Source: a virus
Length of the DNA: 29,888 nucleotides
Reading direction: 5' to 3' (one strand)
IMG/VR virus record: IMGVR_UViG_3300037156_000047
Span: 1-29,888 of that record
Below the pieces are notes generated by a model that was not told the DNA's origin, did no database searches, and was given only the letters and a program-made list of their open reading frames with translations. The first letter of the stretch is position 1, and every line of letters starts with the position of its first letter. Positions 1-29,888 of the stretch are shown in pieces. The position numbers were made by a program, and so were the translations under genes.

Positions 1-836
1 TTTTTCGCCGCTGCAAGGCTGGCGAGACTCCTGGCTTCCCGCGCTTTCGCGGGCGCTTCCGCTACGATTCGTTCACCTTCACGCAGGGCGGCTTCAAGTT
101 GACCGATGACGACAAGTTGGATATGTCGAAGATCGGTCGGGTCAAGATCGTCCTGCACCGACCGGTCGAAGGCACGGTCAAAACCCTCACGGTCAAGCGC
201 ACATCCACCGGCAAGTGGTTCGCCAGCTTCGCGTGCGAAACGGAGGCCGCGCCGCTTCCTGCCAATCCCAAGGCCATCGGCGTGGACATGGGTCTGACCA
301 AATTTGCCACCCTTTCGACCGGCGAGGCCATCGAAAATCCCCGCTTCTTCAAACAGGCCGAAAAGGCGCTTGCCAAGGTGCAACGCAGGCTCGACAAGGA
401 AACCAAAGGCACGCTCGAGCGCCGTTTCCGGCGCAAGGCCGTGGCCTTGACCCATGAAAAGACGGCCAACAGGCGTAAGGACTTCGCCCATAAGCTCTCA
501 CACCGACTCGTCAAGGACTTCGGTACCCTCTGTTTCGAGGACTTGAATATCACCAAGATGGTAGACGGATGGCTCGCCAAGGGCATCCATGACGTTGCGT
601 GGAACCAATTGATCCAGTTCACGACCAACAAGGCAGCATGTGCCGGTCGGTCGTTCGCGTTGGTCAACCCCCGCAACACAAGCAAAATGTGCTCCCGGTG
701 TGGGGTACTGGTCGATAAAGACCTGTCCGTTCGGGTGCATAAGTGCCCTTCTTGTGGGTTGAAAATGGACCGCGACCACAATGCCGCTCTAAATATCCTG
801 AGACTCGGGCTAGAGTCTCTTGCTCTGGGAGCATAG
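1..836 (+). CDS. tnpB: TnpB RNA-guided nuclease, C-terminal part (continues from the right edge)
   Basis: This is the distal three quarters of a TnpB/OrfB protein of the IS200/IS605 (IS1341-like) group. It is open from base 3, and bases 1-2 complete the codon begun by base 29888. The RuvC-like nuclease is visible: GVDMG with its Asp at 285-287, the LCFEDLNI segment with the Glu, and a final Asp in KMDRDHNAA. Between the last two lies a zinc ribbon, CSRCG and CPSCG, so the catalytic and zinc residues appear intact. Joined to 29621-29888 the protein is 367 aa, normal for TnpB. No tnpA transposase accompanies it. GC is lower (about 52% around 541-600) than in the phage genes, and the strand is opposite to all of them, both signs of an inserted passenger. 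TnpB proteins cut DNA using an omegaRNA made from the element's own right end. Confidence 0.93.
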   Translation, partial: FRRCKAGETPGFPRFRGRFRYDSFTFTQGGFKLTDDDKLDMSKIGRVKIVLHRPVEGTVKTLTVKRTSTGKWFASFACETEAAPLPANPKAIGVDMGLTKFATLSTGEAIENPRFFKQAEKALAKVQRRLDKETKGTLERRFRRKAVALTHEKTANRRKDFAHKLSHRLVKDFGTLCFEDLNITKMVDGWLAKGIHDVAWNQLIQFTTNKAACAGRSFALVNPRNTSKMCSRCGVLVDKDLSVRVHKCPSCGLKMDRDHNAALNILRLGLESLALGA

Positions 837-870
837 AAGCCCCCGGCTTGAGCCGTGGGGAGTAGTCACG
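798..870 (+). ncRNA. Candidate omegaRNA 3' portion overlapping the tnpB end
   Basis: In TnpB elements the guide RNA scaffold comes from the 3' end of tnpB and the right end of the element. Here a 7-bp perfect hairpin (800-806 with 813-819, 6-nt loop) lies inside the last tnpB codons. A second, stronger hairpin (840-860) follows right after the stop codon. This matches the usual omegaRNA arrangement. The exact 5' end, and the point where scaffold gives way to guide, cannot be fixed without a homologous element. The guide would be copied from phage sequence just beyond about position 870-880. Confidence 0.45.
840..860 (+). repeat. Right-end hairpin of the tnpB element
   Basis: CCCC (840-843) pairs with GGGG (857-860), C844 with G855, and GGC with GCC, around a TTGA loop, with a single bulged T at 856. 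The left-end hairpin at 29527-29547 has the same architecture, including the bulged T, but its inner stem is GCC/GGC. Subterminal hairpins of this kind are the recognition structures of IS200/IS605-type ends. The outer element boundary is uncertain and probably lies at about 865-884. Confidence 0.7.
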
Positions 871-884
871 ACCCGCCCATCAAT

Positions 885-916
885 AAGCGCCCTCAGCCAA
901 CCGGCCAAGGGCGCTT
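885..916 (-). terminator. Strong hairpin ending the late operon
   Basis: Nine perfect base pairs (885-893 with 908-916) enclose a 14-nt loop that itself contains a GCC/GGC mini-stem (896-898 with 903-905). It lies about 57 nt beyond the last phage stop codon, at the end of a roughly 28-kb co-directional gene run. The minus-strand side is followed by TTATTG rather than a clean T tract, so termination may be imperfect. The stem would also work for tnpB transcription from the other side. The rest of the gap 876-972 shows nothing else recognisable. Confidence 0.55.
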
Positions 917-972
917 GTAACGTAATTGCGAGATACAGCCACCCACCGGGCGCCATATTACACGGAGGGAGA

Positions 973-1416
973 CTATGCCGCCGCGCCAGACTCCGGCGTG
1001 GTCCCAGGATCGCCAGTCGGCGCCGCCACCACGCCCGCAGCCACGGCGGCGAAGTGCAGACCGATCTCCGTGTCCACAGCCAGGTCCACCAGCCCCACGA
1101 CGGCCGAGCTAACCCAATCAGAGGCGCCCAACCGCGCCAGTTCTGCGGCAATGCGGGGATTCAGGAAGGCGTTAACGGCGGCTTTTTTCTCGTCCACCGT
1201 CGAGCCCGGCAGGCGGGCAACGGTGAAAGTCAGGACGGCGTCGACGTCGGCGAGCAGCTCGCCAACGGTCTGAGGAATCTGGGGCATGGTGTTTCCTTTC
1301 GTGAAAAGACGTACCAGGGGGTCGAAAAACGCGGGAGGCTCCCGCAGGAGCGCCAGGACGTGAGTGAGGGTCAGCGCCGGGCCTGCTAGCCACGGCGCCC
1401 AGTCGGGGATATTCAT
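973..1416 (-). CDS. Unknown 147-aa protein, last gene of the operon
   Basis: Not recognised. The ATG at 1416 overlaps the stop of the previous gene (ATGA), the usual sign of translational coupling. The first 43 residues are Trp/Leu/Phe-rich and amphipathic (NIPDWAPWLAG, then LLREPPAFFDP). The remainder is an alanine-rich, probably helical domain with an acidic middle. A second in-frame ATG at 1287 has its own good ribosome-binding site (GAAAGGAAACACC before ATG), giving a 104-aa product beginning MPQIPQTVGELL. Whether one or both forms are made is unclear; the short form may be the main one. Its place after the endolysin suggests a lysis accessory or a terminal accessory role, but nothing in the sequence proves that. 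Confidence 0.65.
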   Translation of the reverse strand: MNIPDWAPWLAGPALTLTHVLALLREPPAFFDPLVRLFTKGNTMPQIPQTVGELLADVDAVLTFTVARLPGSTVDEKKAAVNAFLNPRIAAELARLGASDWVSSAVVGLVDLAVDTEIGLHFAAVAAGVVAAPTGDPGTTPESGAAA

Positions 1417-1559
1417 AACTTGGGCACCTGAAAGCCAAGGGGTGGCGTGGGTGGCGCGGTGGGCTCGGGCATCTGGAACACGACGGCGTGTTGGAAAGTT
1501 TCGATAGGCCAAGCCACCAGCGGCGCGGGCTTGCGGCGGCGGTCGTCCATGCCCTTCAT
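1413..1559 (-). CDS. Unknown 48-aa proline-rich protein
   Basis: A small ORF fully coupled to both neighbours. Its ATG overlaps the stop of the M15 peptidase gene (TAATG), and its TGA overlaps the next ATG (ATGA). The N-terminus is basic (KGMDDRRRKP) and the C-terminal half is proline-rich (PEPTAPPTPP). There is no membrane segment and no lipobox. Perfect double overlap in a compact operon supports it as a real gene, but no function can be assigned. Confidence 0.55.
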   Translation of the reverse strand: MKGMDDRRRKPAPLVAWPIETFQHAVVFQMPEPTAPPTPPLGFQVPKL

Positions 1560-1993
1560 TAGGTCTCCGACCAGTGCGCCGGCCGGGTCGCCGGGTTGGT
1601 ATCCCAGTCGGCGTGAACGAAAAACCCGTGCCCGTTGTAATAGCGCCCCGTGCCGCCCGCCACGTAGGCCGGAACGCCGAGCGCCTTGGCGCCGAGGAAG
1701 TCCACGCCGGCCGCCGTCTGCTCGTTGGCGCCCCGGTCGATGGCCTTGCCTTGTATGTGCTGGCTATGTGGCACGCCGCCGACCTTGGCGTTTTGAGTGG
1801 CGCAGCGGTAGGCGTCATCCACGATAAACGGCATGCCGCTAAACGAGCGCCACTGCTCCGCGTAGCCGGCAGTGATGACGAGGTTAGCCGCGACGTCTGG
1901 CGGGGTTGGGCAGCCGCAGTGGCAATCCATTTCGGCCTTGGAGAAATTGGGCGAATAGTGGGTGGCGTTGGGGTAGCCGGGATACTTTGTCAA
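1559..1993 (-). CDS. Endolysin: M15-family D,D-/L,D-peptidase
   Basis: A 144-aa peptidoglycan peptidase of the M15 type (M15_3-like). It would cut the stem or cross-link peptides of the cell wall at lysis. The family entry motif is present near residues 16-28 (NFSKAEMDCHCGC). The zinc-binding set is complete: His79 and Asp86 in SQHIQGKAID and His127 in FFVHAD. The start is TTG at 1993, preceded by a strong GGAGGTGA site that also contains the stop of the upstream micro-ORF. There is no signal peptide or wall-binding domain, so release would depend on a holin, and the micro membrane proteins just upstream are candidates. The next gene starts on its stop codon. Confidence 0.88.
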   Translation of the reverse strand: MTKYPGYPNATHYSPNFSKAEMDCHCGCPTPPDVAANLVITAGYAEQWRSFSGMPFIVDDAYRCATQNAKVGGVPHSQHIQGKAIDRGANEQTAAGVDFLGAKALGVPAYVAGGTGRYYNGHGFFVHADWDTNPATRPAHWSET

Positions 1994-2066: not shown

Positions 2067-2152
2067 GGCGCGCGCCTGGGCGGCCAGAGCGCCAGCACCG
2101 CCGCAGCGGCGACAAGTGCCCACCAGAACAGCGGGCCGTCTAGATCCTTCAC
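2063..2152 (-). CDS. 29-aa single-span micro membrane protein, holin candidate
   Basis: A 29-codon ORF from GTG at 2152, overlapping the stop of the upstream gene (GTGA) and itself overlapped by the next GTG in the same way. After an acidic start (KDLDGP) comes one membrane helix (FWWALVAAAAVLALW) and a basic tail (PPRRAP). That places the N-terminus outside and the C-terminus inside by the positive-inside rule. It sits directly between a coiled-coil/membrane protein and the endolysin, where holins or antiholins are usual. The function is inferred from position and topology only. Confidence 0.5.
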   Translation of the reverse strand: MKDLDGPLFWWALVAAAAVLALWPPRRAP

Positions 2153-2529
2153 GGGTGAGGCGGGCGGGTGGTGAGCGCCGCCGTAAGCGCTCCCACCGCA
2201 GCCGCCATGCACATTTTCAGCCCGTCCCATGCCATCGTCCAAGTGTGCTCGGTGCGCATGGCGTCGGTTTCATCGCGGGTGGCGTTGATCTTGGTCAGGT
2301 TGGCCTCGTGCTGGGTTTCGAGGTTGGCGACACGGGTCTTGACGTCATCGATCCGGCGGGTGTGATCCTCTTGGATCTGCTTGATCCCTGGCGGCGCCAG
2401 CAGGTCGAGCGGGTCCTTGGTCATCAGCGCCAGCATTTTGTCCTGCTTGGCACCCTGCGCCCGCATCTCGCGCCAGATGGCACGCATCGCGGCGGTGTGG
2501 TCGTGGGGCTCTGTCTCGCCGCCGGTCAT
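2149..2529 (-). CDS. Coiled-coil protein with C-terminal membrane helix (XhlA/holin-associated type)
   Basis: A 126-aa protein from the ATG at 2529, which overlaps the previous TGA (ATGA). An ATG further upstream in the same frame would run far into the neighbouring gene and is unlikely. Residues about 15-85 are a charged, heptad-like helix (EDHTRRIDDVKTRVANLET). Near the C-terminus is one hydrophobic segment (MCMAAAVGALTAALTT). Short proteins with a coiled coil followed by one terminal membrane span recall XhlA-type lysis proteins. Its position, after a cell-wall-type hydrolase and before micro membrane proteins and an endolysin, supports a lysis role. The match is architectural, not a firm family assignment. 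Confidence 0.6.
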   Translation of the reverse strand: MTGGETEPHDHTAAMRAIWREMRAQGAKQDKMLALMTKDPLDLLAPPGIKQIQEDHTRRIDDVKTRVANLETQHEANLTKINATRDETDAMRTEHTWTMAWDGLKMCMAAAVGALTAALTTRPPHP

Positions 2530-3068
2530 ACGAACGGGTACTCGGTAGTAACCGCGCCGATGTAGTGGTACCCGTTGCCAGCGTAGAGCGCCGACCAATG
2601 CTCACAGATGGTCGCCTCGGTCAGGTCGGCGAGGTCGTGGTGCCCGTTGGTGTCGAGCCCGCCACACTTGCCATCCAGTCCGGTGTACACGCAGATGACG
2701 TGCGACCCGACGATCCTGGAGTCGATCAACGTCAGGAGGTGGGCGCTGTAGCCCGCCACCTGACGCACGGCGGTGAGGTACCAGCCCGCCACGTCGTCGC
2801 AGTCGATATAGAGCCGGTTGACGGTGCCGTTTATCAGCGCCGCCTGGAGCCGGTTGGGGTTGGTGTAGAAATCGACCACGCCGCGCAGTGGATCGCCCGT
2901 GTAGGGGTTGCCGTACTGGGTTTTGTACACGTCCACGGCGCCCAGCGGAGCGAGGGCGGGGACCGGCGAGCGGGTGGCGCCCCATATCAAATGGTCGTTG
3001 GCTTTCGACCACGACGCTTTATAATTTAGATAGCCCTCGGCGATGGCGCGTTGTTGGGGAGTGAGCAT
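2526..3068 (-). CDS. Transglutaminase-like cysteine peptidase-fold protein
   Basis: A 180-aa protein with a plausible papain/transglutaminase-type Cys-His-Asp triad. Cys90 lies in LYIDCDDVAGW, His123 in GSHVICVY and Asp139 in GGLDTNGHHDL. The DCDDxA pattern followed by a His-beta strand and a later Asp is the transglutaminase-like core signature. The N-terminal 60 residues are a helical region. The ribosome-binding site is CGGAGGCC before ATG. As the first gene of the lysis block it could cleave peptide or isopeptide bonds in the wall, either as a second lysin or as a tail-borne penetration enzyme. Phage use of this fold is known but not common. The substrate cannot be inferred from sequence. 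Confidence 0.6.
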   Translation of the reverse strand: MLTPQQRAIAEGYLNYKASWSKANDHLIWGATRSPVPALAPLGAVDVYKTQYGNPYTGDPLRGVVDFYTNPNRLQAALINGTVNRLYIDCDDVAGWYLTAVRQVAGYSAHLLTLIDSRIVGSHVICVYTGLDGKCGGLDTNGHHDLADLTEATICEHWSALYAGNGYHYIGAVTTEYPFV

Positions 3069-3096
3069 GTGTGGCCTCCGCTGGTGGGTGGTGGGG

Positions 3097-3357
3097 TTAG
3101 GTGGCGTCGGGTGCCAGCCATCCGGCCGCGGGCGGTGCGGGATCGGGGGTGACTGGTGCCTGAGTGGGCTCGGGCTCGGGCGGGGTGACCTCCACGGACG
3201 CCGCCATCAGCGCCCGGTCGGCGGCGGTCAGGTCAGCGACGGGGACTTGCACCTCCACGATCGATGCGTGAGCCCAGCGCCCGCCCTCCTTGATGCCGGT
3301 CCAGAAATGGGCCACGCCATCGGTGACGTGGGAAAATTCGCGTGCTTCGGTATGCAT
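3097..3357 (-). CDS. Unknown 86-aa tail accessory protein
   Basis: Not recognised. The start is taken at the ATG at 3357, because TAGGAGCACCCCC directly precedes it and contains the previous gene's stop. Upstream in-frame Met codons lie inside that gene. Residues 1-55 look folded (FSHVTDGVAHFWTG, KEGGRWAHASIVEVQV). The C-terminal 30 residues are a Pro/Glu/Ala-rich tail (PPEPEPTQAP). It lies in a run of small proteins between the hub/adhesin and lysis genes, a usual place for tail-tip or host-range accessories. Confidence 0.6.
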   Translation of the reverse strand: MHTEAREFSHVTDGVAHFWTGIKEGGRWAHASIVEVQVPVADLTAADRALMAASVEVTPPEPEPTQAPVTPDPAPPAAGWLAPDAT

Positions 3358-3367
3358 GGGGGTGCTC

Positions 3368-3928
3368 CTATGAGGCGGGGGCGGGGTCGGGTTGCGGGGC
3401 GGGGTCTGGCTGTGGGGCCGGGTCTGCCGCCGGGCGGGGCGTGAAGTCGCCAACGTGTGGCAGGGTGTGCTCGTACTCACGCCGGAGCAACTCGTCCGCC
3501 AGGCGGTGGCCTACGTCGACGGTGATCGCCGTCCCGAACACGAGACCGATCCCGCGGGCGAGGTCGTCCACCGTGAGCCCGATCGCCACGGCGCGGGCCT
3601 GGAGTTCGCCCAGGTCCACCGGCGGTAGCGGTGGTGGCGCCGGTGGTGCGGGCGGGAGCGGCCATACGAGCACACCTTGCCAGGTGGCGAGGGTAGCGCC
3701 CGCTGCGTCGGTGGCGGTGACGGTGAGGTCATCCACCGTGATGACATTCTCGCCCGACTCCGGGTGGGCGTTGCGAAGGGCGATGCACGCTAGGCTGTCA
3801 GCGGTGCTGACGAGGCTGACAATGCGGATGTCGGGGCCGTACTGCGCCACCCAGCCGAAGGCGATGTCATCGCCCGGCGGGTTCTGGCTGACCTGGGTAT
3901 CTTGGCCGGGGATCTCGATGAAGAACAT
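3368..3928 (-). CDS. Unknown 186-aa accessory protein with Pro-rich linker and C-terminal repeats
   Basis: Not recognised. The ATG at 3928 is used because GAGAGGA precedes it. A larger frame to 4207 would overlap the previous gene by about 260 nt. Three parts are visible. The first is a beta-rich N-terminal domain to about residue 78 (FFIEIPGQDTQV, ENVITVDDLTVTATD). Next is a proline linker (PPAPPAPPPLPP), then a helical segment (LQARAVAIGLTVDDLARG). The tail is made of repeated D-P-A-P-Q-P units. Linkers and low-complexity tails like these are common in virion-attached modules. Its position suggests a tail-tip accessory. Confidence 0.6.
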   Translation of the reverse strand: MFFIEIPGQDTQVSQNPPGDDIAFGWVAQYGPDIRIVSLVSTADSLACIALRNAHPESGENVITVDDLTVTATDAAGATLATWQGVLVWPLPPAPPAPPPLPPVDLGELQARAVAIGLTVDDLARGIGLVFGTAITVDVGHRLADELLRREYEHTLPHVGDFTPRPAADPAPQPDPAPQPDPAPAS

Positions 3929-3948
3929 GGGGCGGTCCTCTCTTGGGG

Positions 3949-4434
3949 TTAGGTGGGGATCAGGGTGCCCCAGAACATGAAGTGCGTGCCGGCGCCCGTA
4001 ACCTGCACGGTAAGCCCGGCAGCGATGGGCCAGAAGAGAAAGGGCGCATGCTCCGCTACGACTATGCCGGCTGTTGCGGAAGCGGCGAAAAAGTACCCTA
4101 CAAAAGTGGGCGTGGTAGTTACCACGGAGTTGGTTATCAACCCACCAAACGCTGCCGCTCCCCCAGCGGGCGCATTTGGCGCATACGTGCGATAGCGATC
4201 TACACATGTGGTCGCAAACCCAGCGCTAGGCGTGGCTGAATATACCGTCACACCGCCGATAACGATCGTGCTCGCGACGTTAGCTCCTAGCGTGGTCCAC
4301 CCGTGAATAAGCAACGTCATCCCCGCCGGAACGGTGTAAGCCGCCGCCGTAAGGTCCTGGAACACGGCCCCGCCGCTCGCGAGCCCCACCGCCTCGTCGC
4401 ACATCTGGCCTGGATTAATTAGAGGAAAAAACAT
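3949..4434 (-). CDS. Unknown 161-aa beta-rich protein
   Basis: Not recognised. The ATG at 4434 follows GAGGAGTTAGGCC, which contains the previous stop. The sequence is rich in Gly, Thr, Ala and beta-branched residues (TVPAGMTLLIHGW, STIVIGGVTVYS), like small jelly-roll phage surface proteins. Local GC is lower (about 48% at 4081-4140) than in the core tail genes, in line with exchangeable host-range genes. Probably a tail-tip or decoration protein, by position only. Confidence 0.6.
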   Translation of the reverse strand: MFFPLINPGQMCDEAVGLASGGAVFQDLTAAAYTVPAGMTLLIHGWTTLGANVASTIVIGGVTVYSATPSAGFATTCVDRYRTYAPNAPAGGAAAFGGLITNSVVTTTPTFVGYFFAASATAGIVVAEHAPFLFWPIAAGLTVQVTGAGTHFMFWGTLIPT

Positions 4435-4437
4435 GGC

Positions 4438-4776
4438 CTAACTCCTCGTCCAGACGGACGGATAGCGCCCGACGTAGGTAGGCGTGTAGGTGTGAACCAG
4501 CGTTATTAGCGGGTTGTAATATTGAATGGTGGTTATTTTGTTCTGCGTTGCCGCCCAGGTGATCACCCATTTGAAGGTCGGCCCGGCTATCTGAGTGAGC
4601 TTCCGCCCGCTGTAGGTCGGCGTGAGCGTGCCGGGGTCGAGCGGGTACACGGCATCAAAACTGGCGTTGATCAGTGGGAACGCCGCGGCGAGGTCCGTCA
4701 CGATCGAGTTGTGATCGATAATACGCAGCGTGTCATTGACCGCCACCGCGACGGATGTTTGTACGATGTCTGCCAT
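4438..4776 (-). CDS. Unknown 112-aa tail-region protein
   Basis: Not recognised. AAGGGGGCGAT precedes the ATG at 4776. The N-terminus (ADIVQTSVAVAVNDTLRI) resembles the short beta-strand starts seen in its neighbours. The C-terminal half is aromatic-rich (IQYYNPLITLVHTYTPTY). Base composition drops to about 45% GC at 4501-4560. The 41-nt gap upstream holds a palindromic G+C tract (4788-4801). It belongs to the small accessory cluster after the hub gene. Confidence 0.58.
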   Translation of the reverse strand: MADIVQTSVAVAVNDTLRIIDHNSIVTDLAAAFPLINASFDAVYPLDPGTLTPTYSGRKLTQIAGPTFKWVITWAATQNKITTIQYYNPLITLVHTYTPTYVGRYPSVWTRS

Positions 4777-4817
4777 ATCGCCCCCTTGGCCGGCCGGCCG
4801 GTGAATCTACGCTGACC

Positions 4818-5414
4818 CTACGCCAGATTCAGCGTGTACTGCCCCGACGCCGTATTTAACGAAGTCTTGGCGAACAGTTGCAAAAACCGGGCGATCACCT
4901 TGCCCGAGCCAGCCCCAGCCCCGGCCGACGCCGCACAGATGCCCCACTCTTGCAGGGTGGCGTTAGCTACCCCCGTCCCGAAAAACCAGTATCCAAGCCC
5001 CTGCGAGTAGATAGGCGAGCCCTGGATTACTGACGACGGTACCGCCCGGTGAATCTCGACGTTCAACTGTGACAGCGTCGGGTCGGTGGCGGTGGAGTTG
5101 GTCCCGGTGGCGATGTAGGTCACCGCCAGCGAGTCGAAGGCCAGGGCGGCGAATTGGTTGATGATGCTCGCTTTGAAACAGTTCATGATCGTGTTACGGC
5201 CCTCGACCGACTCGATGGCGTGGTTCACGCCGAGCGGGCAGACGCCATGGCGGTGTTCCATCTCCATGCACGGGGCAATCTCCGCCAGGATGATCGCGCG
5301 CTCGTGCGCCGGGAAGTGGTCGGCGACGGCGATCGCCTTGCTGTAGTCGGCCTTGTGGAGGGCGTATTCGCCCCACATGGCGAAGGTGTCGCGGGCGGTG
5401 ATGATGGCGGCCAT
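4818..5414 (-). CDS. Unknown 198-aa protein of the tail-tip cluster
   Basis: Not recognised. The ATG at 5414 lies 3 nt after the previous stop codon (TAAGCCATG). There is no clear ribosome-binding site, so translation probably depends on ribosomes finishing the upstream gene. The first 85 residues are helical and Cys/His-containing (CMEMEHRHGVCPLGVNH), a possible but unproven metal site. The rest is beta-rich with Gly/Ser (ATGTNSTATDP, GYWFFGTGVANATL). It could be a virion protein or a chaperone for one. Confidence 0.58.
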   Translation of the reverse strand: MAAIITARDTFAMWGEYALHKADYSKAIAVADHFPAHERAIILAEIAPCMEMEHRHGVCPLGVNHAIESVEGRNTIMNCFKASIINQFAALAFDSLAVTYIATGTNSTATDPTLSQLNVEIHRAVPSSVIQGSPIYSQGLGYWFFGTGVANATLQEWGICAASAGAGAGSGKVIARFLQLFAKTSLNTASGQYTLNLA

Positions 5415-5417
5415 GGC

Positions 5418-5729
5418 TTAGGTCACCGTGGTGCTAGTGTTGTCGCACCGCTTCCACACCGCTCCATTGCTCACGGCAATACAAGGGCCATTGCCGCCCG
5501 CGTTGCTGGCGAAGCAGATAGCGCCCGCGCCAGCCGTGGCGGCACTTGGGAGCGTGGCAACGGTGTACGACGCCAGTTCGATCGGCGCCGTGGCCTGGGT
5601 GGCGAAGAATAGGGTAAAGAGTTGCAGCACCGTCTGGTTGAAGTTGGCGCCGCCCTGCACGATGGGGAATACGTCGGTGGTCGCGGGGGTGACGACGGCG
5701 GTCATTGCGGAGATTGCGGTATCTGCCAT
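5418..5729 (-). CDS. Short tail-fibre-like protein, 103 aa
   Basis: The N-terminus ADTAISAMTAVVTPATTDVFPIVQ is represented here by the motif TPATTDVFPIVQGG. It matches the start seen on many phage fibre and tail-tip proteins, where it attaches a fibre to the particle. The second half (TLPSAATAGAGAICFASN) is a short Gly/Ala beta motif also frequent in phage minor structural proteins. No receptor-binding domain follows, so this is either a minimal fibre or an adaptor for the next genes. CGGAGGATCACGCCC precedes the ATG at 5729. Confidence 0.65.
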   Translation of the reverse strand: MADTAISAMTAVVTPATTDVFPIVQGGANFNQTVLQLFTLFFATQATAPIELASYTVATLPSAATAGAGAICFASNAGGNGPCIAVSNGAVWKRCDNTSTTVT

Positions 5730-14891: not shown

Positions 14892-14903
14892 CGGTCAACC
14901 TCC

Positions 14904-15799: not shown

Positions 15800-15866
15800 G
15801 AATATATCTCCTTGCGAAGCTGGCCGCCCCATGCGAGGCGGCCAGCGTGGCGGGTACTCCGTGGGG

Positions 15867-16631: not shown

Positions 16632-16723
16632 GAGATAGTCCTCCAGCGTGCTAGGGGCTGGCGGGGCACAAGGCGCGGCCGGGGGGTTACATTAGCGGCG
16701 GGTCCTCCGCACGCAGGATCGAA

Positions 16724-16903: not shown

Positions 16904-16913
16904 GGGCGGCCCC

Positions 16914-18600: not shown

Positions 18601-18644
18601 GCGTATTCCTTCCAAGGGCGGCGCCATGCGGGCCTGGGGTGGGG

Positions 18645-20825: not shown

Positions 20826-20907
20826 TTCTATCTCCTTCTCGGCGCCGTGGCGGGCCGGGTGGCGTGGCGTGAGACGGGTGGGCGCGGTGGCCGTGACCGG
20901 GTAGTGG

Positions 20908-23482: not shown

Positions 23483-24298
23483 GGCGCCTCCTTCTAGGTC
23501 GGCAACTGCCCCAAGACCGGCGGAAATTACGGCGCAGCGGCAATTTGGATGTTTTGGCGGGGCGTCGCCGCTCCAGCCGTCCGGGGCGTCGAAGTCGGTG
23601 TCGAGGGCGCGAATCTGACCATCCATGGCGTCGCAATGCCCGCAACACCTGGCGTCCGACGTGGCGCTCCACTGCTTCAGTAGCCCCATTTCCGGGAAGT
23701 CGGCGGCCACGGCCACCATCTGCGCCAGGCGGGCGGCGTTCATCGCCGAGTTAATTTCAGTCCTGGCGATCCGCTCGAGCTTCCACGCCTCTTGCTCTAT
23801 GGACTCGCCCAGCCGTTTGGCAGCGGGTCGGATGCCCTCGCCCATCGTGAGGCTCACACCGAGGGAATCTGCGGCGGCGGTGCTGATGCCGTCGCCAAAC
23901 TTGGTCAGCAACGCCTCTTGCGGGTCGCTGATATGGAGGATGGCGTCGATCGGGAGAAAGGCCGCCACCTGGGAGGCAACCTCTGGATCGCCCACGTTGG
24001 CGGCGACGTCCTCTAGCGCGTGACCGGCGCCCATTTCGATCGCCGTGGTGGTGCTGCGGGCCAGGCTGGCGAGCATCTCCGGGATCGACTCACTGAGGAC
24101 TTGCGAGACCTCGAAAATGGTGTGGGCGGCGTGTTGGCTGCGTACCGTGTCGCCGTGGCCGGTGTCGAGTAACTTGACCAGACGGGAGACCATCTCCTTC
24201 TTGGCCCGGCGGAAGATGCGCTGGAGGCGCATCCATGCAGTGGCTTCGAGGTCGAGGGCGGCGCGGGCGTGTTCGGCGGGGAGTGGGTCGAGGGCCAT
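22385..24298 (-). CDS. MuF-prohead protease-scaffold in one 637-aa reading frame
   Basis: One uninterrupted frame from the ATG at 24298 (CGGAGGGCACACC before it). Residues 1-272 are a MuF-type head morphogenesis protein: ARTEINSAMNAARL near 176, WSATSDARCCGHCDAMDG, then the closing PKHPNCRCAV near 250. Residues from 273 are a U35-like prohead serine protease. Its candidate His is in DLTGHNVRQKIG (about 346) and its candidate Ser in ENVGMSFEI (about 396). Residues 448-637 are helical, Ala-rich scaffold-like sequence. Two internal ATGs at 23482 and 22957 carry strong sites. The three products are normally encoded by two or three separate genes. Whether the full-length fusion or the internal products dominate is unknown. 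A +1-frame TAG lies just before the first internal site, so an ancestral or sequencing frameshift is possible. Confidence 0.82.
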   Translation of the reverse strand: MALDPLPAEHARAALDLEATAWMRLQRIFRRAKKEMVSRLVKLLDTGHGDTVRSQHAAHTIFEVSQVLSESIPEMLASLARSTTTAIEMGAGHALEDVAANVGDPEVASQVAAFLPIDAILHISDPQEALLTKFGDGISTAAADSLGVSLTMGEGIRPAAKRLGESIEQEAWKLERIARTEINSAMNAARLAQMVAVAADFPEMGLLKQWSATSDARCCGHCDAMDGQIRALDTDFDAPDGWSGDAPPKHPNCRCAVISAGLGAVADLEGGAMKLFTLQAMALAMPDTGAPNRHPFTGILCQLDTPSTKAPGGSGGDCVILPTTVAEKILPTLLGMGVNYISDLTGHNVRQKIGVITEARIEAGAIHVSGVLWDKDFPDAVRTIQAANATGENVGMSFEIDVTLAPERAGVARIKASTGFTGAAILLRRDAAYEQTRLAAAAEGVHTMTPEELAAALAANNTNLLASVGTLITAAVAAAMPVRAASVKKGAPALTEDLDRLQDLHAAAAKSGYGDSSAMGALGEHAAHMKANADNYQDTASVQGAAVVAPDPAIATLTAAAEAQSKEIASLTARLTAQAQQPERVTVSPAISALLSRADLTPKDDAPLTAAVLTAAMDKAGMTDPVTRTQMLMALPN

Positions 24299-24321: not shown

Positions 24322-24645
24322 CTAGCTGAACATCAGGTTAGTTGCCTGTGTAAACTGGGGAAGGTTCTGGTACGGGGTGGTTGCTTGCTCCTGTGTGTCA
24401 AGGCGCCAGCCTCGGCCGATGTCGGAGCGTCGCCAGAGGTTGAGCATGCCGTCTTGGGTGATCGTGACCATCGTCCCGTCTTTGATTCTCGACACCACGA
24501 CAAGAGCGCCGTCCTGGAGCATGCCTTCGATGGTCATGTACCGGACCTCCACGCCGCCGCGGTCACGAATGGCGACAATCTCGGGGTCGAGCGGGGCGAG
24601 TGAATCTCCCCAAGGCTCGACAACCTCACCATTCATTCCGATCAT
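24322..24645 (-). CDS. Unknown 107-aa protein upstream of MuF
   Basis: Not recognised. CCGGAGGGCGCCAG precedes the ATG at 24645. It looks like a compact beta protein (VVEPWGDSLAPLDPEI, GALVVVSRIKDGTMVTI, LNLWRRSDIGRGWRL) with a polar end. It sits between portal and MuF genes, where small head-associated proteins are common. No membrane span or metal motif is visible. Confidence 0.6.
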   Translation of the reverse strand: MIGMNGEVVEPWGDSLAPLDPEIVAIRDRGGVEVRYMTIEGMLQDGALVVVSRIKDGTMVTITQDGMLNLWRRSDIGRGWRLDTQEQATTPYQNLPQFTQATNLMFS

Positions 24646-24659
24646 CTGGCGCCCTCCGG

Positions 24660-24779
24660 TTAATCAGCGAACGCCACCAGTAGGCGCTCTAGTAGGTCTG
24701 GCGCGATGATGAGCCCCGCCATCGGCGGAGGCGGCGCCAGTTGGTAGTCCAGGCGGATGCCGGTAGGGAAGTCCGCCAT
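24660..24779 (-). CDS. 39-aa micro protein
   Basis: A 39-codon ORF with a near-perfect ribosome-binding site (CAGGAGGTGGACC before ATG). The peptide has a proline run (LAPPPPMAG) followed by a short amphipathic helix (APDLLERLLVAFAD). The next gene starts 15 nt after its stop. It is too short to classify. The excellent initiation site and tight packing make translation likely. Confidence 0.55.
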   Translation of the reverse strand: MADFPTGIRLDYQLAPPPPMAGLIIAPDLLERLLVAFAD

Positions 24780-24806
24780 GGTCCACCTCCTGACGCCGGC
24801 CGGGGT

Positions 24807-25031
24807 CTAGGTGAAGTCCGTCGCCACGACCGCCAACGCCGCAGCCAGACCGCCGGAGAGGCCTGCCAGTGCGGCGAGGTCGGCGTTGATCAGCGCCGCG
24901 TCCCGGACGTGGCCCTTGATGGCGTTGAGTTGGGCGGTGATATCAATACCCGTGGCGAGGCCAAGGGTTTGATCGGCGCCAACCGCAGCGGCGATGGCGG
25001 TGGTGAGGTCTGCGAGTGCTGTTCCAGCCAT
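24807..25031 (-). CDS. Unknown 74-aa Ala-rich protein
   Basis: The ATG at 25031 is chosen because AGGAGGCTCCCC precedes it and the portal stop lies just upstream; longer forms would run into the portal gene. The protein is strongly helical (LADLTTAIAAAVGADQ, TAQLNAIKGHVRDAAL) and ends in an Ala/Leu segment (GGLAAALAVVATDF) too weak to call a membrane span. Position between portal and MuF suggests a head-assembly accessory. Not recognised. Confidence 0.6.
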   Translation of the reverse strand: MAGTALADLTTAIAAAVGADQTLGLATGIDITAQLNAIKGHVRDAALINADLAALAGLSGGLAAALAVVATDFT

Positions 25032-25041
25032 GGGGAGCCTC

Positions 25042-26430
25042 CTATTTACGGGCGGGCTTGCGGCCCTTGGGTGGGGTGTCGGGGGTGCCCTTGGCGGGCT
25101 TGTCGTCGGGGCTCGCCACCGCGGCGGGCTGGGGTGCATTTTCGTCCGGGTTGGCGCTGGGCACCGTGGCGGCGTCTCCGCGCGCCTTGGCGATCAGGAT
25201 GGCGTTTTCGGTGGCGGTGAGGGCGCCGCGCCCGCCTTCTAGCGGCTCCAGCCCTAGCTCGTGGCGGTGCTCGTCGGGGACCGTGATGCCCGCCCCGATG
25301 AGGATCTCCCACACTTGCGCCTGCGCCAAGTCGTCCTCGTTGGTGAGCCCCTCGAAGACGAACGCCAGGTCATACCAACCAAGCGCCCGGCCTATTGCCT
25401 CGCGGGTGAGATACTCCGCCAGCAGCCGCGCCATGGGGAGGATGGCGCCCGCGTCGTCGGCTTCCGCCATTTCCTCGGCGGTGGCGCGGTTGACGGAGGT
25501 TTCCAAGTTGAGTTTCTGCGGGGAGATCCCGAACGCCAGGGCGATGAGCCTGACCAGCCAGGACTGCCACGCAAGGCGGAGGTCGGCGTCGGTGCCAGCG
25601 CCAAGCTTGAGCACTTGCGCCATGGCGCCCTTGGCACCCTCGGCGGGAGATTCGGACCCGCCGATAATGGGCGTCTCGCCCTGGCCCTCGACGCTGTCCT
25701 GCCAGTAGAGCCGGAAGGCGTCCACCTGGTCGGGCGTGATCGACGCGCCCAGGTCGAGCATGAATGACGGCGCGGCGTTGCCGGCGATCTTGCTGGCGAA
25801 GTCGAAACTGGAGACGAACGCGCAAATGAGATTGAACGCCACCTCCACCGGCGTGAGACCGAATGGCGTGGAGGTGCGGGGGTTCATCCGCAGGTACATG
25901 AGTTGGTCGTTGCGGAGCGGGATGTCGTGGCCCGCATAGCCTACGTGTTGAACGTACCGAGCTTCGTTGGGGGCGCCGGTCCACGCCGGGTAGAGGCGGA
26001 TCGTGGAGCCGTCCACCGGGAACAGCCAGAGCGGGTGGAGTGGGTCGGCGCTGACGACGATCTCCACCGCACCGGCGATGGTCATCGTGTCGTCAATGAC
26101 CTGCTCCGCCAGGGAGCGGAAGGAGTCGTCTTTGTTGGGCGAGGACAGGCAGACGGTGACGATCGCCGCGCGCTTCTCCATATCCGGCGTCATCTCGAGG
26201 CCGGGCGCCGCTACGATCTTCCACGCCGCGGCGGCTACGGGGTTTTTTGTGACGTTGAGCGCCGCGCGGACTAAGGGGTGCTCCGCGAAGCGCTGGAGGT
26301 TGGCTTGTGTAGGCTTGGGGATGGGGCGTTGCGTGCCACCGCCGCGGAAGGCGTTGATCCAGGAGGGGTAGGGCTGGGTGCCGCGGGTGGGAGGTGCCGG
26401 TGCTGTCGGTGCGGCGTGGATGCGGGCCAT
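25042..26430 (-). CDS. Portal protein
   Basis: A 462-aa portal, the dodecameric DNA gate at one capsid vertex. The order terminase, portal, MuF, protease, capsid fits. The sequence follows the SPP1/HK97-type plan. It has an N-terminal region (WINAFRGGG), then wing strands (ALNVTKNPVAAAAWKI, GAVEIVVSADPLHPLW) and the LYLRMNP-like step LMYLRMNPRTSTPFGLTP. The stem/clip helices include AFGISPQKLNLETSVNRA, a very typical portal segment, and the crown helix region is EEMAEADDAGAILPMARL. The last 45 residues are a disordered Pro/Lys tail (KGRKPARK). GTAGGAGGGCTAACCC precedes the ATG. Confidence 0.93.
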   Translation of the reverse strand: MARIHAAPTAPAPPTRGTQPYPSWINAFRGGGTQRPIPKPTQANLQRFAEHPLVRAALNVTKNPVAAAAWKIVAAPGLEMTPDMEKRAAIVTVCLSSPNKDDSFRSLAEQVIDDTMTIAGAVEIVVSADPLHPLWLFPVDGSTIRLYPAWTGAPNEARYVQHVGYAGHDIPLRNDQLMYLRMNPRTSTPFGLTPVEVAFNLICAFVSSFDFASKIAGNAAPSFMLDLGASITPDQVDAFRLYWQDSVEGQGETPIIGGSESPAEGAKGAMAQVLKLGAGTDADLRLAWQSWLVRLIALAFGISPQKLNLETSVNRATAEEMAEADDAGAILPMARLLAEYLTREAIGRALGWYDLAFVFEGLTNEDDLAQAQVWEILIGAGITVPDEHRHELGLEPLEGGRGALTATENAILIAKARGDAATVPSANPDENAPQPAAVASPDDKPAKGTPDTPPKGRKPARK

Positions 26431-26442: not shown

Positions 26443-26616
26443 CTACGGACGCGGTGGCGTTGGGTCCTGCTTGATGTGGATGTCGATCCCATTGCGGTCG
26501 AGCGCCTGCGCCCAACGCCAGCCAACGGCAGCGGCGAGCGTGGCGGCGAGCGTGGCGAGCATACCGGAGGCGAGGACACCCAGCCCGAAGCCGAGGGCGA
26601 TGGGGGCTAGGTGCAT
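26443..26616 (-). CDS. 57-aa single-span membrane protein
   Basis: Starts at the ATG at 26616, overlapping the end of the preceding small ORF by 10 nt, with GGCGAGG upstream. Residues 4-34 form a long hydrophobic helix (IALGFGLGVLASGMLATLAA) followed by RWAQALDRNGIDIHI and a Pro-rich tail. It is the largest of four tiny ORFs between terminase and portal. Function unknown; a membrane role early in assembly or DNA exit is possible but unsupported. Confidence 0.55.
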   Translation of the reverse strand: MHLAPIALGFGLGVLASGMLATLAATLAAAVGWRWAQALDRNGIDIHIKQDPTPPRP

Positions 26617-26717
26617 GGGTGGGCCTCGCCGATCGTGGTGGGACGGGGTTCTTTCCATGCGGCCTTGAATGCAGCGAGTTGGACGGCGTCCACTTCGGCG
26701 CGGATGGCGTTGTGCAT
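26607..26717 (-). CDS. 36-aa micro protein, third ORF of the 86-bp array
   Basis: The ATG at 26717 is preceded by AGGTAAGCGCC, the same initiation cassette that precedes the two upstream micro-ORFs. The TAA inside it ends the previous ORF. The peptide is soluble and helical (NAIRAEVDAVQLAAFKAAW) with a basic Pro-rich end. It differs from the two hydrophobic members, so only the cassette is shared. Not recognised. Confidence 0.5.
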   Translation of the reverse strand: MHNAIRAEVDAVQLAAFKAAWKEPRPTTIGEAHPCT

Positions 26718-26722
26718 GGCGC

Positions 26723-26803
26723 TTACCTCAGGATGTCAAAGATGACCAGACCGCCGACCAACATGCCGACGGCGAAACTGATAGCGCACCAGGCGAGTAG
26801 CAT
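26723..26803 (-). CDS. 26-aa micro membrane protein (array unit 2)
   Basis: A 26-codon ORF with one hydrophobic helix (AISFAVGMLVGGLVIF) ending D-I-L-R. AGGTAACCGCC comes before its ATG, with the previous stop codon TAA embedded in it. Same length, same ILR end and same spacing as the upstream unit, so the two are probably diverged copies. A real but unstudied membrane micro protein is the favoured reading. Confidence 0.5.
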   Translation of the reverse strand: MLLAWCAISFAVGMLVGGLVIFDILR

Positions 26804-26808
26804 GGCGG

Positions 26809-26889
26809 TTACCTCAGGATTGCGGCGGCAGTGAGGATGCCGATTGCGTACGCTATGCCCCATCGCACGAGGTAGCCCGTCCCATTCAT
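26809..26889 (-). CDS. 26-aa micro membrane protein (array unit 1)
   Basis: A 26-codon ORF directly after the large terminase. Its ribosome-binding site AAGAGGTAAGCGCC contains the terminase stop codon, so the two are translationally coupled. The peptide has a short polar start (NGTGYLVRW) and a hydrophobic helix (GIAYAIGILTAAAI) ending I-L-R. It shares length and C-terminus with the next unit. Confidence 0.5.
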   Translation of the reverse strand: MNGTGYLVRWGIAYAIGILTAAAILR

Positions 26890-26894
26890 GGCGC

Positions 26895-28136
26895 TTACCT
26901 CTTGATGGATCCGAACGAGAAACCGGCGGAGGGCGCCTTACCGTACAGTGTGAACTCTCGATATCGCAGGGCGTCCATGCCGTGGTCGTTGACCTTGAGC
27001 GGCTTGTCTTCGCCCTTTATAATGGCCTTGGGGTCCCACGAGTAAGAGCCAAATTCCTTGACGAGGTGCGGGCACTTCTCGCGGTGAATCTTGACCTTGC
27101 CATCTGTCAGGCGGTTGGACACCACCCGAATACCTGGCACCACGTCATTGTCTGCCGATGTGATGCCCTTGAATCCGTCCTTGCGAAGTTGGGCCGCCAT
27201 GGACGAGGCGGAAGGATCGATGTAAATGTGGCGCGGTAGGCGGTTGCCTAGAAACTTGATCAACGCCTGCGAGTATTCGCCGTCCGTCAGTTGGCGCATC
27301 GTGTCGCGCCCGCAGTGGCGGTATTCGTCGACATACCAGCCCACATCAGCCTTGGCGCCAACCAAGAGCGCGTGAAAAGGGTTCTGTGTGCCGTAGTCAA
27401 GCGTGAGGTCAAACCAGTCAAACGCCGCAGGCTGGTCGACATCATCAAACCCATGGGCGTCTAGGTCGAATGAGTCGTAGATGACGCCTTCGGCCATGAC
27501 CCACATGCCCTTGACCATGCGCTGAAACCACAACCCGGTGAAGCTGGCGCGGATGTCGGCCTTGTATTCTTCGGACAGGGCAAAGTTATCGTCTAGGTCG
27601 AAGTGGTGAACGGTCACGCGCCCGGAGGTTAGCGCCGCCTCGTTGCCGATGTAATCCTCATGGACCCAGTGAAACGGCGAGTCCGGGTTGGTCGTCCAGA
27701 TGGCACGCCCGGCTCCCTTGGAGCAACGAAGGATCGACTGCTTCACCACCACCTGGGGGATCTGCGTCACCTCGTCAATGTAGCAGCCTTCGACCGTCAT
27801 GCCGCGGATGCGTTTTTCGGCGCCAACGTCCCGAGCGCCAACACAGTGAATGGTACGGCCGAACAGGTAGAGGGTGTGATCGACGTAGCGGGAGTGCTCC
27901 GGGCCGACCATATCCAGTAAGTCGCTTATGACGTTGCGGTACAGGGTATCGCCCGTGACGCCTAGCATCAGGAGCCGCCCACCCTCGGACGTTTCCGACA
28001 TGACGTAGATCACCCAGCGAATGATACTGGCGATCGTCTTGCCCGACCGGACGGCGCCTTCAAGGATGTTAATTCGGGTGAGTGGCGCCTCGATCACGTC
28101 GAGTTGCTTGGGGCTAAAGTCGCAGTAAGTGAACAC
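26895..28136 (-). CDS. Terminase large subunit
   Basis: A 413-aa DNA-packaging motor. The GTG at 28136 overlaps the small subunit stop (TAGTG); the frame continues upstream but that part is antisense-like and overlaps the small subunit. The ATPase has Walker A EGAVRSGKT near residues 26-34 and Walker B CYIDEV with its Asp-Glu near 120. A coupling-like TTNPDSPFHW follows. The RNase H-like nuclease has Asp in LTLDYGTQNPF (about 246), in YIDPSASSM (about 306) and in NDHGMDALRY (about 387). All active-site acids look present. It cuts concatemers and pumps DNA through the portal. Length is a little under the usual 420-500 aa. Confidence 0.93.
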   Translation of the reverse strand: MFTYCDFSPKQLDVIEAPLTRINILEGAVRSGKTIASIIRWVIYVMSETSEGGRLLMLGVTGDTLYRNVISDLLDMVGPEHSRYVDHTLYLFGRTIHCVGARDVGAEKRIRGMTVEGCYIDEVTQIPQVVVKQSILRCSKGAGRAIWTTNPDSPFHWVHEDYIGNEAALTSGRVTVHHFDLDDNFALSEEYKADIRASFTGLWFQRMVKGMWVMAEGVIYDSFDLDAHGFDDVDQPAAFDWFDLTLDYGTQNPFHALLVGAKADVGWYVDEYRHCGRDTMRQLTDGEYSQALIKFLGNRLPRHIYIDPSASSMAAQLRKDGFKGITSADNDVVPGIRVVSNRLTDGKVKIHREKCPHLVKEFGSYSWDPKAIIKGEDKPLKVNDHGMDALRYREFTLYGKAPSAGFSFGSIKR

Positions 28137-28654
28137 TAGCCCCGCCCCGCGTTCCGCTTGCTCTGCTGAATGGCGTCGACCATATTTTGTAGCGGGTTGC
28201 CACTTGGCGCCGCCTGCAATCCGTCCTTCATGCCTAGCGATAGTCGGCCCATCTTGTCGGCGGCGGCCAGGGCGGCGATGTAGTCCTTGAGATCTTTCGG
28301 CGCGTTGAGGAACGCCACCTCCACGATCTCCGAGCCCTCCTTGGTGAAGCCGACAACCGATTGTGTCTTGCCTGGGTTCATCCATTCGGCGTAAAGGGCG
28401 CGGGCCTGGGCGGCAAGGCGGAGTGATTCGCGGGTCCATTCGGTGGCGTCGGTGAGTAACTCCTGCGCTATACGATGCGGCAATTCCGCCGACACCCTAC
28501 CGACAACCTGCCGACAGTCGGAAACCCACGATTCAGACTTTGCGCGCCTTTCGATGGTGCGGCTTGATATACCATATTTGTCGGCAAGCTTTCGGTAGCT
28601 CGTGCCGCCCTTTAAATATTCGGCCTTGATGGCTGTCCAGTTCGGGCTTGCCAC
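28136..28654 (-). CDS. Terminase small subunit
   Basis: A 172-aa DNA-recognition subunit of the packaging enzyme. The GTG at 28654 follows GGGAGGCGCCTGT. The N-terminus holds a helix-turn-helix (SYRKLADKYGISSRTIERRA), the usual DNA-binding part, which would recognise the packaging site. The rest is helical (LPHRIAQELLTDATEW, AALAAADKMGRLSLGM) for ring assembly, ending in a basic tail. It overlaps the large subunit by one base. Packaging sites often lie in or near this gene, but I could not identify one. Confidence 0.85.
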   Translation of the reverse strand: MASPNWTAIKAEYLKGGTSYRKLADKYGISSRTIERRAKSESWVSDCRQVVGRVSAELPHRIAQELLTDATEWTRESLRLAAQARALYAEWMNPGKTQSVVGFTKEGSEIVEVAFLNAPKDLKDYIAALAAADKMGRLSLGMKDGLQAAPSGNPLQNMVDAIQQSKRNAGRG

Positions 28655-28725: not shown

Positions 28726-29109
28726 TTAGGAAGCCGCCCGCAGTGCAGCTGCGTAAGCTTCAGCAACGGTAATGCGGGGGCACGCCTGGAGCCTGCCAGA
28801 TCGGCGCGCGCGCTCCGCCTGTGTGTCGGGGCTCTCGTCGCGGTGGTGATAGTCCGTCCGCCGGTCGGAGCAGTCGCCGGGGAATAGGGCGATGAGGGCC
28901 GCCAGGGCGGGGACGAGTCGGCGGGCGGCAAGGATGGCGGGATCTTCGCCGGTGGCGGGCACGAAGGCCGCGGGCGTGAGGTTAATGGTGCGGGTGGCGA
29001 GGTGCTGGCGGCTGACGACGGGCTTGGATGCGGCCTTTCGAGCCGCCTGCCTTTGCTTGTCGGTGACGACCACGGCGGCTAGTTGTTCGGCGATCTTTGA
29101 TGCGCGCAT
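28726..29109 (-). CDS. Unknown 127-aa basic protein
   Basis: The ATG at 29109 is chosen because GGAGGCCAGT precedes it; the longer form would start inside the terminator. Not recognised. The N-terminal half is basic and helical (ASKIAEQLAAVVVTDKQ, ARKAASKPVVSRQHLA), the middle is hydrophobic (ARRLVPALAALIALF), and a charged stretch follows (DRRTDYHHRDESPD). It could bind nucleic acid. It lies between the regulator and the small terminase, where HNH nucleases or regulators often occur, but no HNH motif is visible. Confidence 0.55.
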   Translation of the reverse strand: MRASKIAEQLAAVVVTDKQRQAARKAASKPVVSRQHLATRTINLTPAAFVPATGEDPAILAARRLVPALAALIALFPGDCSDRRTDYHHRDESPDTQAERARRSGRLQACPRITVAEAYAAALRAAS

Positions 29110-29124
29110 ACTGGCCTCCAATGC

Positions 29125-29154
29125 AAAAAGACCCTGAGCAGCAGCTCTTGGTCT
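29125..29154 (-). terminator. Terminator between the regulator and the late operon
   Basis: Read on the minus strand: AGACC pairs with GGTCT, with an inner GAGC/GCTC stem and a TGCT loop separated by a small internal loop. Five T residues follow. It lies about 65 nt after the regulator's stop and only about 16 nt before the next ATG. Late gene transcription entering from the mapped promoter must pass this point. The rest of the gap 29110-29216 contains no further recognisable element. Confidence 0.6.
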
Positions 29155-29216
29155 TCGGTGTTTCCTCACATAAGCACGCCAAGGGCACGCCCAGCGTCAC
29201 CCTTGATTGCTCAATA

Positions 29217-29405
29217 TTACCCCGTAAGTCGGGCTATTTTGCGGATAGCAGCATAATAAGTTTTATGTACGCATTGCGGAGATATGCCCATAACGCGGGC
29301 GGCCTGGCTGTATGACAGGTTTTTTGCGGCGATAAGTTCGAACGCCTCGCGCTGGCGAGCGGTCAACTTAGCGAAGGCCTCGGGGGGAGTGAGGGCGGGT
29401 AGCAT
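29217..29405 (-). CDS. Sigma-70 region 4-like / RinA-type small regulator
   Basis: A 62-aa protein beginning MLPALTPPEAFAKL. The ATG at 29405 is preceded by GTGGAGGGACGT; an in-frame ATG at 29453 lies upstream of the promoter -10 box and cannot be used from it. Residues about 15-58 match a sigma region 4-type helix-turn-helix: LTARQREAFELIAAK, then SYSQAARVMGISPQCVHK, then TYYAAIRKIARL. Such small proteins control late transcription in several phage groups and sit just upstream of the small terminase, as here. There is no sigma region 2, so it would act as an activator, not a complete sigma factor. Confidence 0.75.
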   Translation of the reverse strand: MLPALTPPEAFAKLTARQREAFELIAAKNLSYSQAARVMGISPQCVHKTYYAAIRKIARLTG

Positions 29406-29437
29406 ACGTCCCTCCACATGCGCGCGCGCACGAGGCC

Positions 29438-29466
29438 AGTATACCCCAAGCAAGCGTGAGTTTCAC
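29438..29466 (-). promoter_or_regulatory. Sigma-70-type promoter for the regulator/late genes
   Basis: On the minus strand, GTGAAA (29466-29461, 4 of 6 matches to the -35 consensus) is 17 nt from TATACT (29443-29438, 5 of 6). Transcription would start near 29431, giving a leader of about 25 nt before the GGAGGG site and ATG at 29405. A run of alternating CG/CA (29419-29431) lies at the start point. This is the only convincing phage promoter I see on that strand. Confidence 0.6.
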
Positions 29467-29526
29467 GGTATCGCCTGATGGCGTGGTCTGGGATGTGGCG
29501 GGCCATTTACCGAATGCCCCGTAAAG

Positions 29527-29547
29527 CCCCCGCCTTTAGGCGTGGGG
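29527..29547 (+). repeat. Left-end hairpin of the tnpB element
   Basis: CCCC (29527-29530) pairs with GGGG (29544-29547), C31 with G42 (last two digits), and GCC with GGC around a TTTA loop, with a bulged T at 29543. It is the twin of the right-end hairpin at 840-860. The inner stem bases are swapped but still paired, so structure is conserved rather than sequence. A second hairpin (29559-29563 with 29568-29572) follows. The element's outer edge is probably between about 29505 and 29526. Confidence 0.7.
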
Positions 29548-29608
29548 ATATAAGGGGCGCGGCGTGAGCCGCTGTAACGTCCAGCCGAAAACTTAAGCGA
29601 TTCTGGGG

Positions 29609-29614
29609 TATAAT
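29609..29614 (+). promoter_or_regulatory. -10 box (TATAAT) immediately upstream of tnpB
   Basis: A perfect TATAAT only 6 nt before the GTG start codon. Transcripts starting at the normal distance would be nearly leaderless. There is no purine-rich ribosome-binding site between them. I did not find a strong -35. Low tnpB expression is usual and this arrangement fits it. Confidence 0.5.
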
Positions 29615-29620
29615 AGACAT

Positions 29621-29888
29621 GTGCTTAAAACCTTTCAGTACAGAATCTACCCGACGAAATCCCAAGAAACGGCGCTCGACGCCGCCCTTCGGGCCTGCCG
29701 GTGGGTGTATAATCAAGTTCTCGAAGCCCGCAAGACCGCCTGGGAGGCGGATAAGGTGAGCTTGAGTCTGTTCGATACGATGAAGTTCCTGCCCGGCTGG
29801 AAGGCCGATCATGACTTTCTCAAGAAAGCGCACTCGCAGACGCTTCAAAACGTCTGTGTGCGCGTTGACTTGGCGATGAAAGCCTTTT
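29621..29888 (+). CDS. tnpB: TnpB RNA-guided nuclease, N-terminal part (continues at base 1)
   Basis: The first 89 codons of tnpB, from GTG at 29621. The start FQYRIYPTKSQETALDAAL and the segment RACRWVYNQVLEARKTAW are the standard N-terminal helix-turn-helix-like opening of TnpB. Before the edge comes LQNVCVRVDLAMKAF, which normally continues FFRRCKAGE-PGFPRF. That continuation stands at the left edge. The last base of the window is codon position 1 and the first two bases are positions 2 and 3, so the join is in frame. Direct joining gives three Phe where relatives usually have two, which could be natural or a 3-nt overlap at the cut. Confidence 0.9.
   Translation, partial: MLKTFQYRIYPTKSQETALDAALRACRWVYNQVLEARKTAWEADKVSLSLFDTMKFLPGWKADHDFLKKAHSQTLQNVCVRVDLAMKAF

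Follow-up and report, generated by a model that had tools for sequence, protein, structure and literature searches.

We analyzed IMG/VR virus record IMGVR_UViG_3300037156_000047, a stretch of 29,888 bp (the window) that is the whole record and not a piece of a larger contig. The record carries the late genes of a tailed siphophage (Caudoviricetes) and no recognizable early genes, and its two ends join inside an intact tnpB gene of an IS200/IS605-type insertion sequence (IS). A terminator-like hairpin and a promoter-like site flank this IS, and the complete kin of the record are larger. We put at about even the chance that a larger siphophage was cut short at the IS, through assembly or recombination, and that its late half is what the record holds.

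Closure of the record inside a tnpB gene

The first and the last base of the record both lie inside one tnpB gene. When the end of the record was joined to its start, a single intact TnpB frame of 367 codons was obtained; therefore, its two ends close into a circle. The joined TnpB is collinear over its full length with the TnpB proteins of Methanothrix (52%) and of a Parachlamydiales metagenome-assembled genome (MAG; 50%), except that one additional Phe stands exactly where the ends meet. The sequence there is a T run, and the extra residue is explained by a 3-nt end overlap or by a homopolymer error. The overlap between the record ends is only 3-4 nt, compared to the k-mer-sized end repeat of 93-127 nt kept by circular short-read contigs of IMG/VR. 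An earlier note on this DNA, made from the letters alone, had described a jump from the regulator gene to tnpB and on to the last genes of the late operon; this jump is the circular join within one gene. The element and the operon borders on either side of it are as follows.

29217-29405, minus strand: sigma-70 region-4 regulator, first gene of the operon (62 aa; likely ATG start at 29405, with ribosome-binding site (RBS) GGAGGG)
29438-29466, minus strand: promoter-like site GTGAAA-17-TATACT upstream of the regulator (9/12 in a consensus scan)
29511-29888, plus strand: IS left end (LE) and 5' part of tnpB (start at 29621; the frame continues at position 1)
1-869, plus strand: 3' part of tnpB (stop at 836) and IS right end (RE), ending in TCAC at 866-869
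872-926, minus strand: terminator-like hairpin after the last gene (RNA fold of -29.6 kcal/mol, z -4.1)

The IS is about 1,244 bp long, intact, present in the record as a single copy and without tnpA. It begins directly after the target TTAC (29507-29510), and its right end, GTCAC, was observed at the same place behind related tnpB genes in four other loci. The zinc-ribbon domain of TnpB (PF07282, E 9e-26), the subterminal hairpins, the target tetranucleotide to the left of the LE and the conserved cleavage end at the RE are those of the IS200/IS605 family. The element is like the IS1341-like tnpB-only members of that family in its TnpB (50-52% over the full length to the Methanothrix and Parachlamydiales proteins), in the RE GTCAC and in the target TTAC at the LE, but it sits in the gap of a phage late operon, between the hairpin that follows the last phage gene and the promoter-like site that precedes the regulator. 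None of 200 shuffled sequences was as stable as the hairpin, which has no long T run. Matches as good as the promoter-like one occurred in near the number expected by chance for the scan, and the site was retained for its position alone.

The nearest relatives of the TnpB protein were found in archaeal (Methanothrix) and bacterial (Parachlamydiales) MAGs; therefore, this TnpB lineage is spread across domains. A chromosome search with TnpB produced only distant matches, in Methanothrix, Parachlamydiales, Methanoculleus and Lachnospiraceae, and none of them names the host.

All the phage genes are on the minus strand and make a packaging-head-tail-lysis run from 29405, the start of the regulator, to 973. 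TerL, portal, capsid, connector, tape measure and lysin follow one another in the late order, as they do in the late operon of a tailed siphophage. In a codon-usage scan of both strands, the minus strand scored best in 92% of the 120-nt segments, and the only sustained coding run on the plus strand was tnpB. The GC skew climbs steadily without a turn, which fits transcription in one direction and locates no origin.

We found no early region of the kind that a complete siphophage has: searches of 31 candidate genes against PHROGs, Pfam and NCBIfam produced no credible match to a replication, recombination, integrase or repressor family, and no further coding run was seen. Polymerase, primase, helicase and single-stranded DNA-binding protein (SSB) had no credible family match among the candidate genes, NCBIfam adding none. 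Hidden early genes were considered and rejected, as the family searches of the unassigned minus-strand open reading frames (ORFs) and the codon-usage scan gave none. Neither an iteron-like array nor any other sign of an origin turned up in the record, and no structured RNA was matched in Rfam.

These results bear out the earlier note where it described recognizable packaging, virion and lysis modules (family matches were obtained for TerS, TerL, portal, Mu-F-like protein, adaptor, neck1, tape measure, tail fibre and M15 endolysin) with no replication, integration or repressor genes. Neither a replication protein nor an origin, which the note had counted against its own view, was found among the unassigned genes by the family searches and the repeat scan. 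Its complete lysis set holds for the M15 endolysin and, weakly, for an XhlA-like protein, with no certain holin. The regulator that it called sigma-4/RinA-like does have sigma-70 region 4 (Pfam Sigma70_r4_2, E 1.4e-10; sigma factor PHROGs 1740 and 1190; NCBIfam sigma70-ECF below cut-off), while no RinA family match was found for it.

Relatives and their genome sizes

The record had no close relatives in IMG/VR: the best identity was 48% in searches with TerL, capsid, portal and tape measure proteins as queries and with profiles of TerL and capsid. No near DNA match was found among phages with positions 1-25000 of the window as the query. A large IMG/VR family has counterparts of the portal, protease domain, capsid and adaptor at 30-48% identity; in this family, IMGVR_UViG_3300037466_000798 (66.6 kb) and about 100 others carry the portal, Mu-F/protease, capsid and adaptor genes in the same order as here. 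The tape measure and tail protein are weakly alike; otherwise, no genes are shared, and the terminase differs from that of the record in the family member examined. The Streptomyces actinophages SV1, Vondra and Alderaan share with the record the late order from terminase to endolysin and a TerL that is 41-43% identical, whereas their head genes are not similar to those of the record (tblastn). Vondra has an integrase, and Alderaan has an annealing protein, an SSB and Cro/XRE regulators, all of which the record lacks. Since no compared locus unites kin of the SV1-like TerL with kin of the head module, the late operon is a mosaic.

Completeness of the kin was judged from the record ends in 32 kin records, with direct terminal repeats of 93-127 nt being counted. 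Five records had such repeats, with lengths of 55.4, 59.6, 60.3, 66.6 and 124.7 kb; a sixth (63.6 kb) was not counted as complete because its repeat, 12 nt, was too short. A DNA polymerase, DnaB and a DnaD-like loader were found in the 66.6-kb genome, DnaB and an integrase in the 60.3-kb one, a helicase/primase and RecT in the 59.6-kb one and a polymerase in the 124.7-kb one. Replication genes are thus present in four of the five, and the fifth, of 55.4 kb, has at least a single-strand annealing protein. No complete genome of this head-module family was near 30 kb, and every complete one, at 55-125 kb, had replication or recombination genes. Among the kin records of at least 31 kb (n = 37), an integrase was matched in 14 and DnaB in 11. 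The kin of the SV1-like TerL are 34-41 kb long, with early genes adjoining the late operon. As judged from their gene content, the kin that could be assessed have the early half that the record is without.

Genes of the late operon

The genes that follow the regulator are listed in the direction of the operon.

28726-29169, minus strand: protein of 147 aa (weak coding score, without RBS; no credible PHROG, Pfam or NCBIfam match)
28136-28654, minus strand: terminase small subunit, TerS (phrog_1206, E 5.7e-12)
26895-28439, minus strand: SV1-like terminase large subunit, TerL (phrog_2, E 3.2e-46; 42-44% to Streptomyces SV1-like and related IMG/VR TerL)
26443-26892, minus strand: two 26-aa membrane micro-ORFs and a small membrane protein, split by a 21-nt stop/RBS/start repeat
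25042-26430, minus strand: portal protein (phrog_2662, E 1.3e-32; 40-45% to IMG/VR kin)
24322-25139, minus strand: two small proteins, 24807-25139 and 24322-24645 (no credible PHROG, Pfam or NCBIfam match)
22385-24298, minus strand: fused head protein with Mu-F-like and prohead protease-like domains (Pfam Phage_Mu_F, E 1.1e-16)
21311-22273, minus strand: major capsid protein, 320 aa from an internal ATG (40-48% to 108 IMG/VR relatives adjoining portal and protease)
20364-21246, minus strand: two small proteins behind the capsid gene, decoration-like by position only (no family match)
19695-20333, minus strand: head-tail adaptor (phrog_442, E 1.6e-13)
19161-19673, minus strand: putative connector
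18645-19124, minus strand: neck1/tail completion protein (phrog_169, E 1e-12)
17365-18627, minus strand: glycosyltransferase (phrog_13126, E 2.6e-15)
14892-17363, minus strand: tail terminator, Ig-bearing major tail protein and tail chaperone region (roles by position and order only)
9270-14891, minus strand: tape measure protein, 1873 aa (phrog_4704, E 5.3e-60)
5763-9254, minus strand: tail protein/fibre with a lectin-like (LamG) region (phrog_5939, E 3.5e-27)
2526-5729, minus strand: distal tail and further proteins (phrog_5417, E 7.3e-5, for 4818-5414; no match for the rest)
2149-2598, minus strand: possible XhlA-like lysis accessory protein (phrog_1193 'hemolysin', E 0.0016, weak)
1559-1993, minus strand: endolysin, peptidase M15 (phrog_894, E 8.3e-17; Peptidase_M15_3, E 1.1e-11)
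973-1561, minus strand: two or three small ORFs closing the operon (no PHROG match)

The helix-turn-helix part of TerS had weak matches to repressor and invertase families, which were discounted as usual for such domains. On the minus strand of 26680-26910, the micro-ORFs start at 26889 and 26803, and a third small ORF starts at 26717. The 21-nt repeat ATCCTGAGGTAAGCGCCATG, spaced by 86 nt, encodes in each case the final codons, the stop, the RBS and the next start. We considered this repeat (26714-26906) as an origin and rejected it: it is the stop/RBS/start repeat of tiny membrane ORFs, and its DNA fold is not unusual.

Residues ~270-443 of the fused head protein match separate protease-like ORFs in the IMG/VR kin. 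The capsid protein had no match in PHROGs, Pfam or the phage collection; both the capsid and the prohead protease were recognized because of their relatives only. We observed capsid relatives in more than 100 IMG/VR contigs; this is a widespread capsid family that PHROG and Pfam do not recognize from the present member. The glycosyltransferase stands inside the neck and tail region, an odd place for an accessory gene, and a search with it produced distant, mixed plasmid matches that indicate no host. The Ig domain was found at 15867-16631 (phrog_2175, E 2.4e-4), while the LamG call on the tail fibre was below the cut-off (Laminin_G_3, E 4.3e-5). No certain holin was found in the lysis region.

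Truncated genome or complete phage

Under the truncation reading, the phage would be an uncultured tailed siphophage, probably of 40-60 kb, and the record would be its late half. Its early genes, for replication, recombination, lysogeny or takeover, would lie between the late terminator and the regulator promoter, at what is now the site of tnpB. More than one copy of the 1.24-kb IS would be present in the phage genome or in the sampled population, and the late half would have closed onto itself across the IS. We infer, in other words, a second IS copy, a missing half and a step that removed it. Assembly would be the likeliest closing step, since the IS repeat exceeds the insert length of short reads; the other would be recombination between two IS copies in direct orientation. 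A published caution is that perfect repeats give wrong joins where no read pairs bridge them (PMC7111523). The earlier note had proposed that an event between transposon copies removed the early half; this idea fits best the size and genes of the kin and the record ends inside the IS, though only one intact IS copy was found, and a break in the assembly at the IS would account for these facts as well as a biological deletion would. If the circle were cut at random, the cut would land within the 1,244-bp IS in 4.2% of cases, while ends inside the IS are expected if the IS is the repeat that halted the assembly. The late module alone is as large as a normal late half, which, along with the size and content of the kin genomes, favours truncation. 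The end overlap of 3-4 nt, in place of a k-mer-sized repeat, counts on the same side.

Several observations weigh against truncation. An exact 28-mer of tnpB matched no other IMG/VR contig, in a search from which records very close to this one may be missing, so no second IS copy was seen there, and no trace of one was found within the record. Two copies are needed exactly at both early/late borders, with the late promoter and terminator left intact. Also, repeat collapse normally ends contigs at the IS borders and does not make them meet within 3 nt in the middle of a gene, and the ends of this record do meet precisely. Finally, the kin are just 30-48% identical to the record; therefore, their genome size is a weak guide.

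The same precise closure into an intact tnpB, with the IS in the gap between the hairpin and the promoter-like site of the operon, is what one would see in a complete small phage, circular or circularly permuted, in which one IS is added to about 28.6 kb, the virion and lysis genes form one operon and the DNA is copied entirely by host replication proteins. We hold this to be plausible, at less than even chance. Such a phage would probably be strictly lytic and would possibly replicate from a cryptic origin or in a recombination-dependent way; however, the record shows no iteron-like array or other origin signal. The host-replication alternative, which the earlier note had also named, gains from cultured phages without annotated replication genes, i.e., Rhodococcus RRH1 (14.3 kb), Arthrobacter cluster AN (15.6 kb) and Microbacterium cluster EE (16-18 kb), the last of which forms plaques (PMC11749239, PMC5513430, PMC11953736). 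Like these, the record has no recognizable replication, integrase or repressor gene; it loses ground on the complete kin, which are about twice the size of the record and carry early genes. RRH1, AN and EE are siphophages that propagate autonomously, and genes for structure and lysis take up nearly the whole of their genomes. Their late modules are compact and other small genes are kept at the non-structural end (several small helix-turn-helix genes in AN and EE, HNH in AN and RRH1), while the record has one sigma-4 protein beside a 28-kb late module. None of the three was among the best matches listed in phage-collection searches with TerL, the Mu-F protein and the capsid; no direct comparison was made. 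The narrower claim, that one late-type operon led by the 62-aa sigma-4 protein is the whole genome, about 29 kb, of a tailed phage that is autonomous and replicated entirely by its host, we regard as tentative and on the unlikely side.

The earlier note had further named a helper-dependent particle and a domesticated transfer agent, and nothing was found in support of either. In the former, the late operon would be a replicon relying on a helper phage or on a second segment that shares the IS. A full virion set without replication genes agrees with that idea, which we consider improbable: satellites usually keep replication and regulation genes and borrow the structural ones, and the record has the reverse content. 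In addition, the tnpB 28-mer occurs in no second IMG/VR element, and we know of no example of a segmented tailed phage. Structural and lysis genes with no integrase or replication genes could likewise be those of a gene transfer agent, or of a defective prophage cluster, that is fixed in the host chromosome. Such a cluster would not be expected to close as a circle, and the record does so, without host flank or host genes; besides a mobile IS, it has a terminase small subunit and a tape measure gene of great length. No chromosomal copy of the cluster is known, although no search aimed at one was made. We consider this origin the most doubtful of all. Being without positive support, both ideas are unlikely.

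Should the record be complete, it would show that a siphophage late module of full size can live with no replication genes and with a sigma-4 protein as its sole regulatory gene. A phage of about 29 kb would be about twice the size of the known siphophages free of replication genes, and the lifestyle of RRH1, AN and EE would extend to a larger particle. If, instead, the record was truncated at the IS, it would be a warning that a seemingly closed circular virus record may be half a genome when a transposon is at the join.

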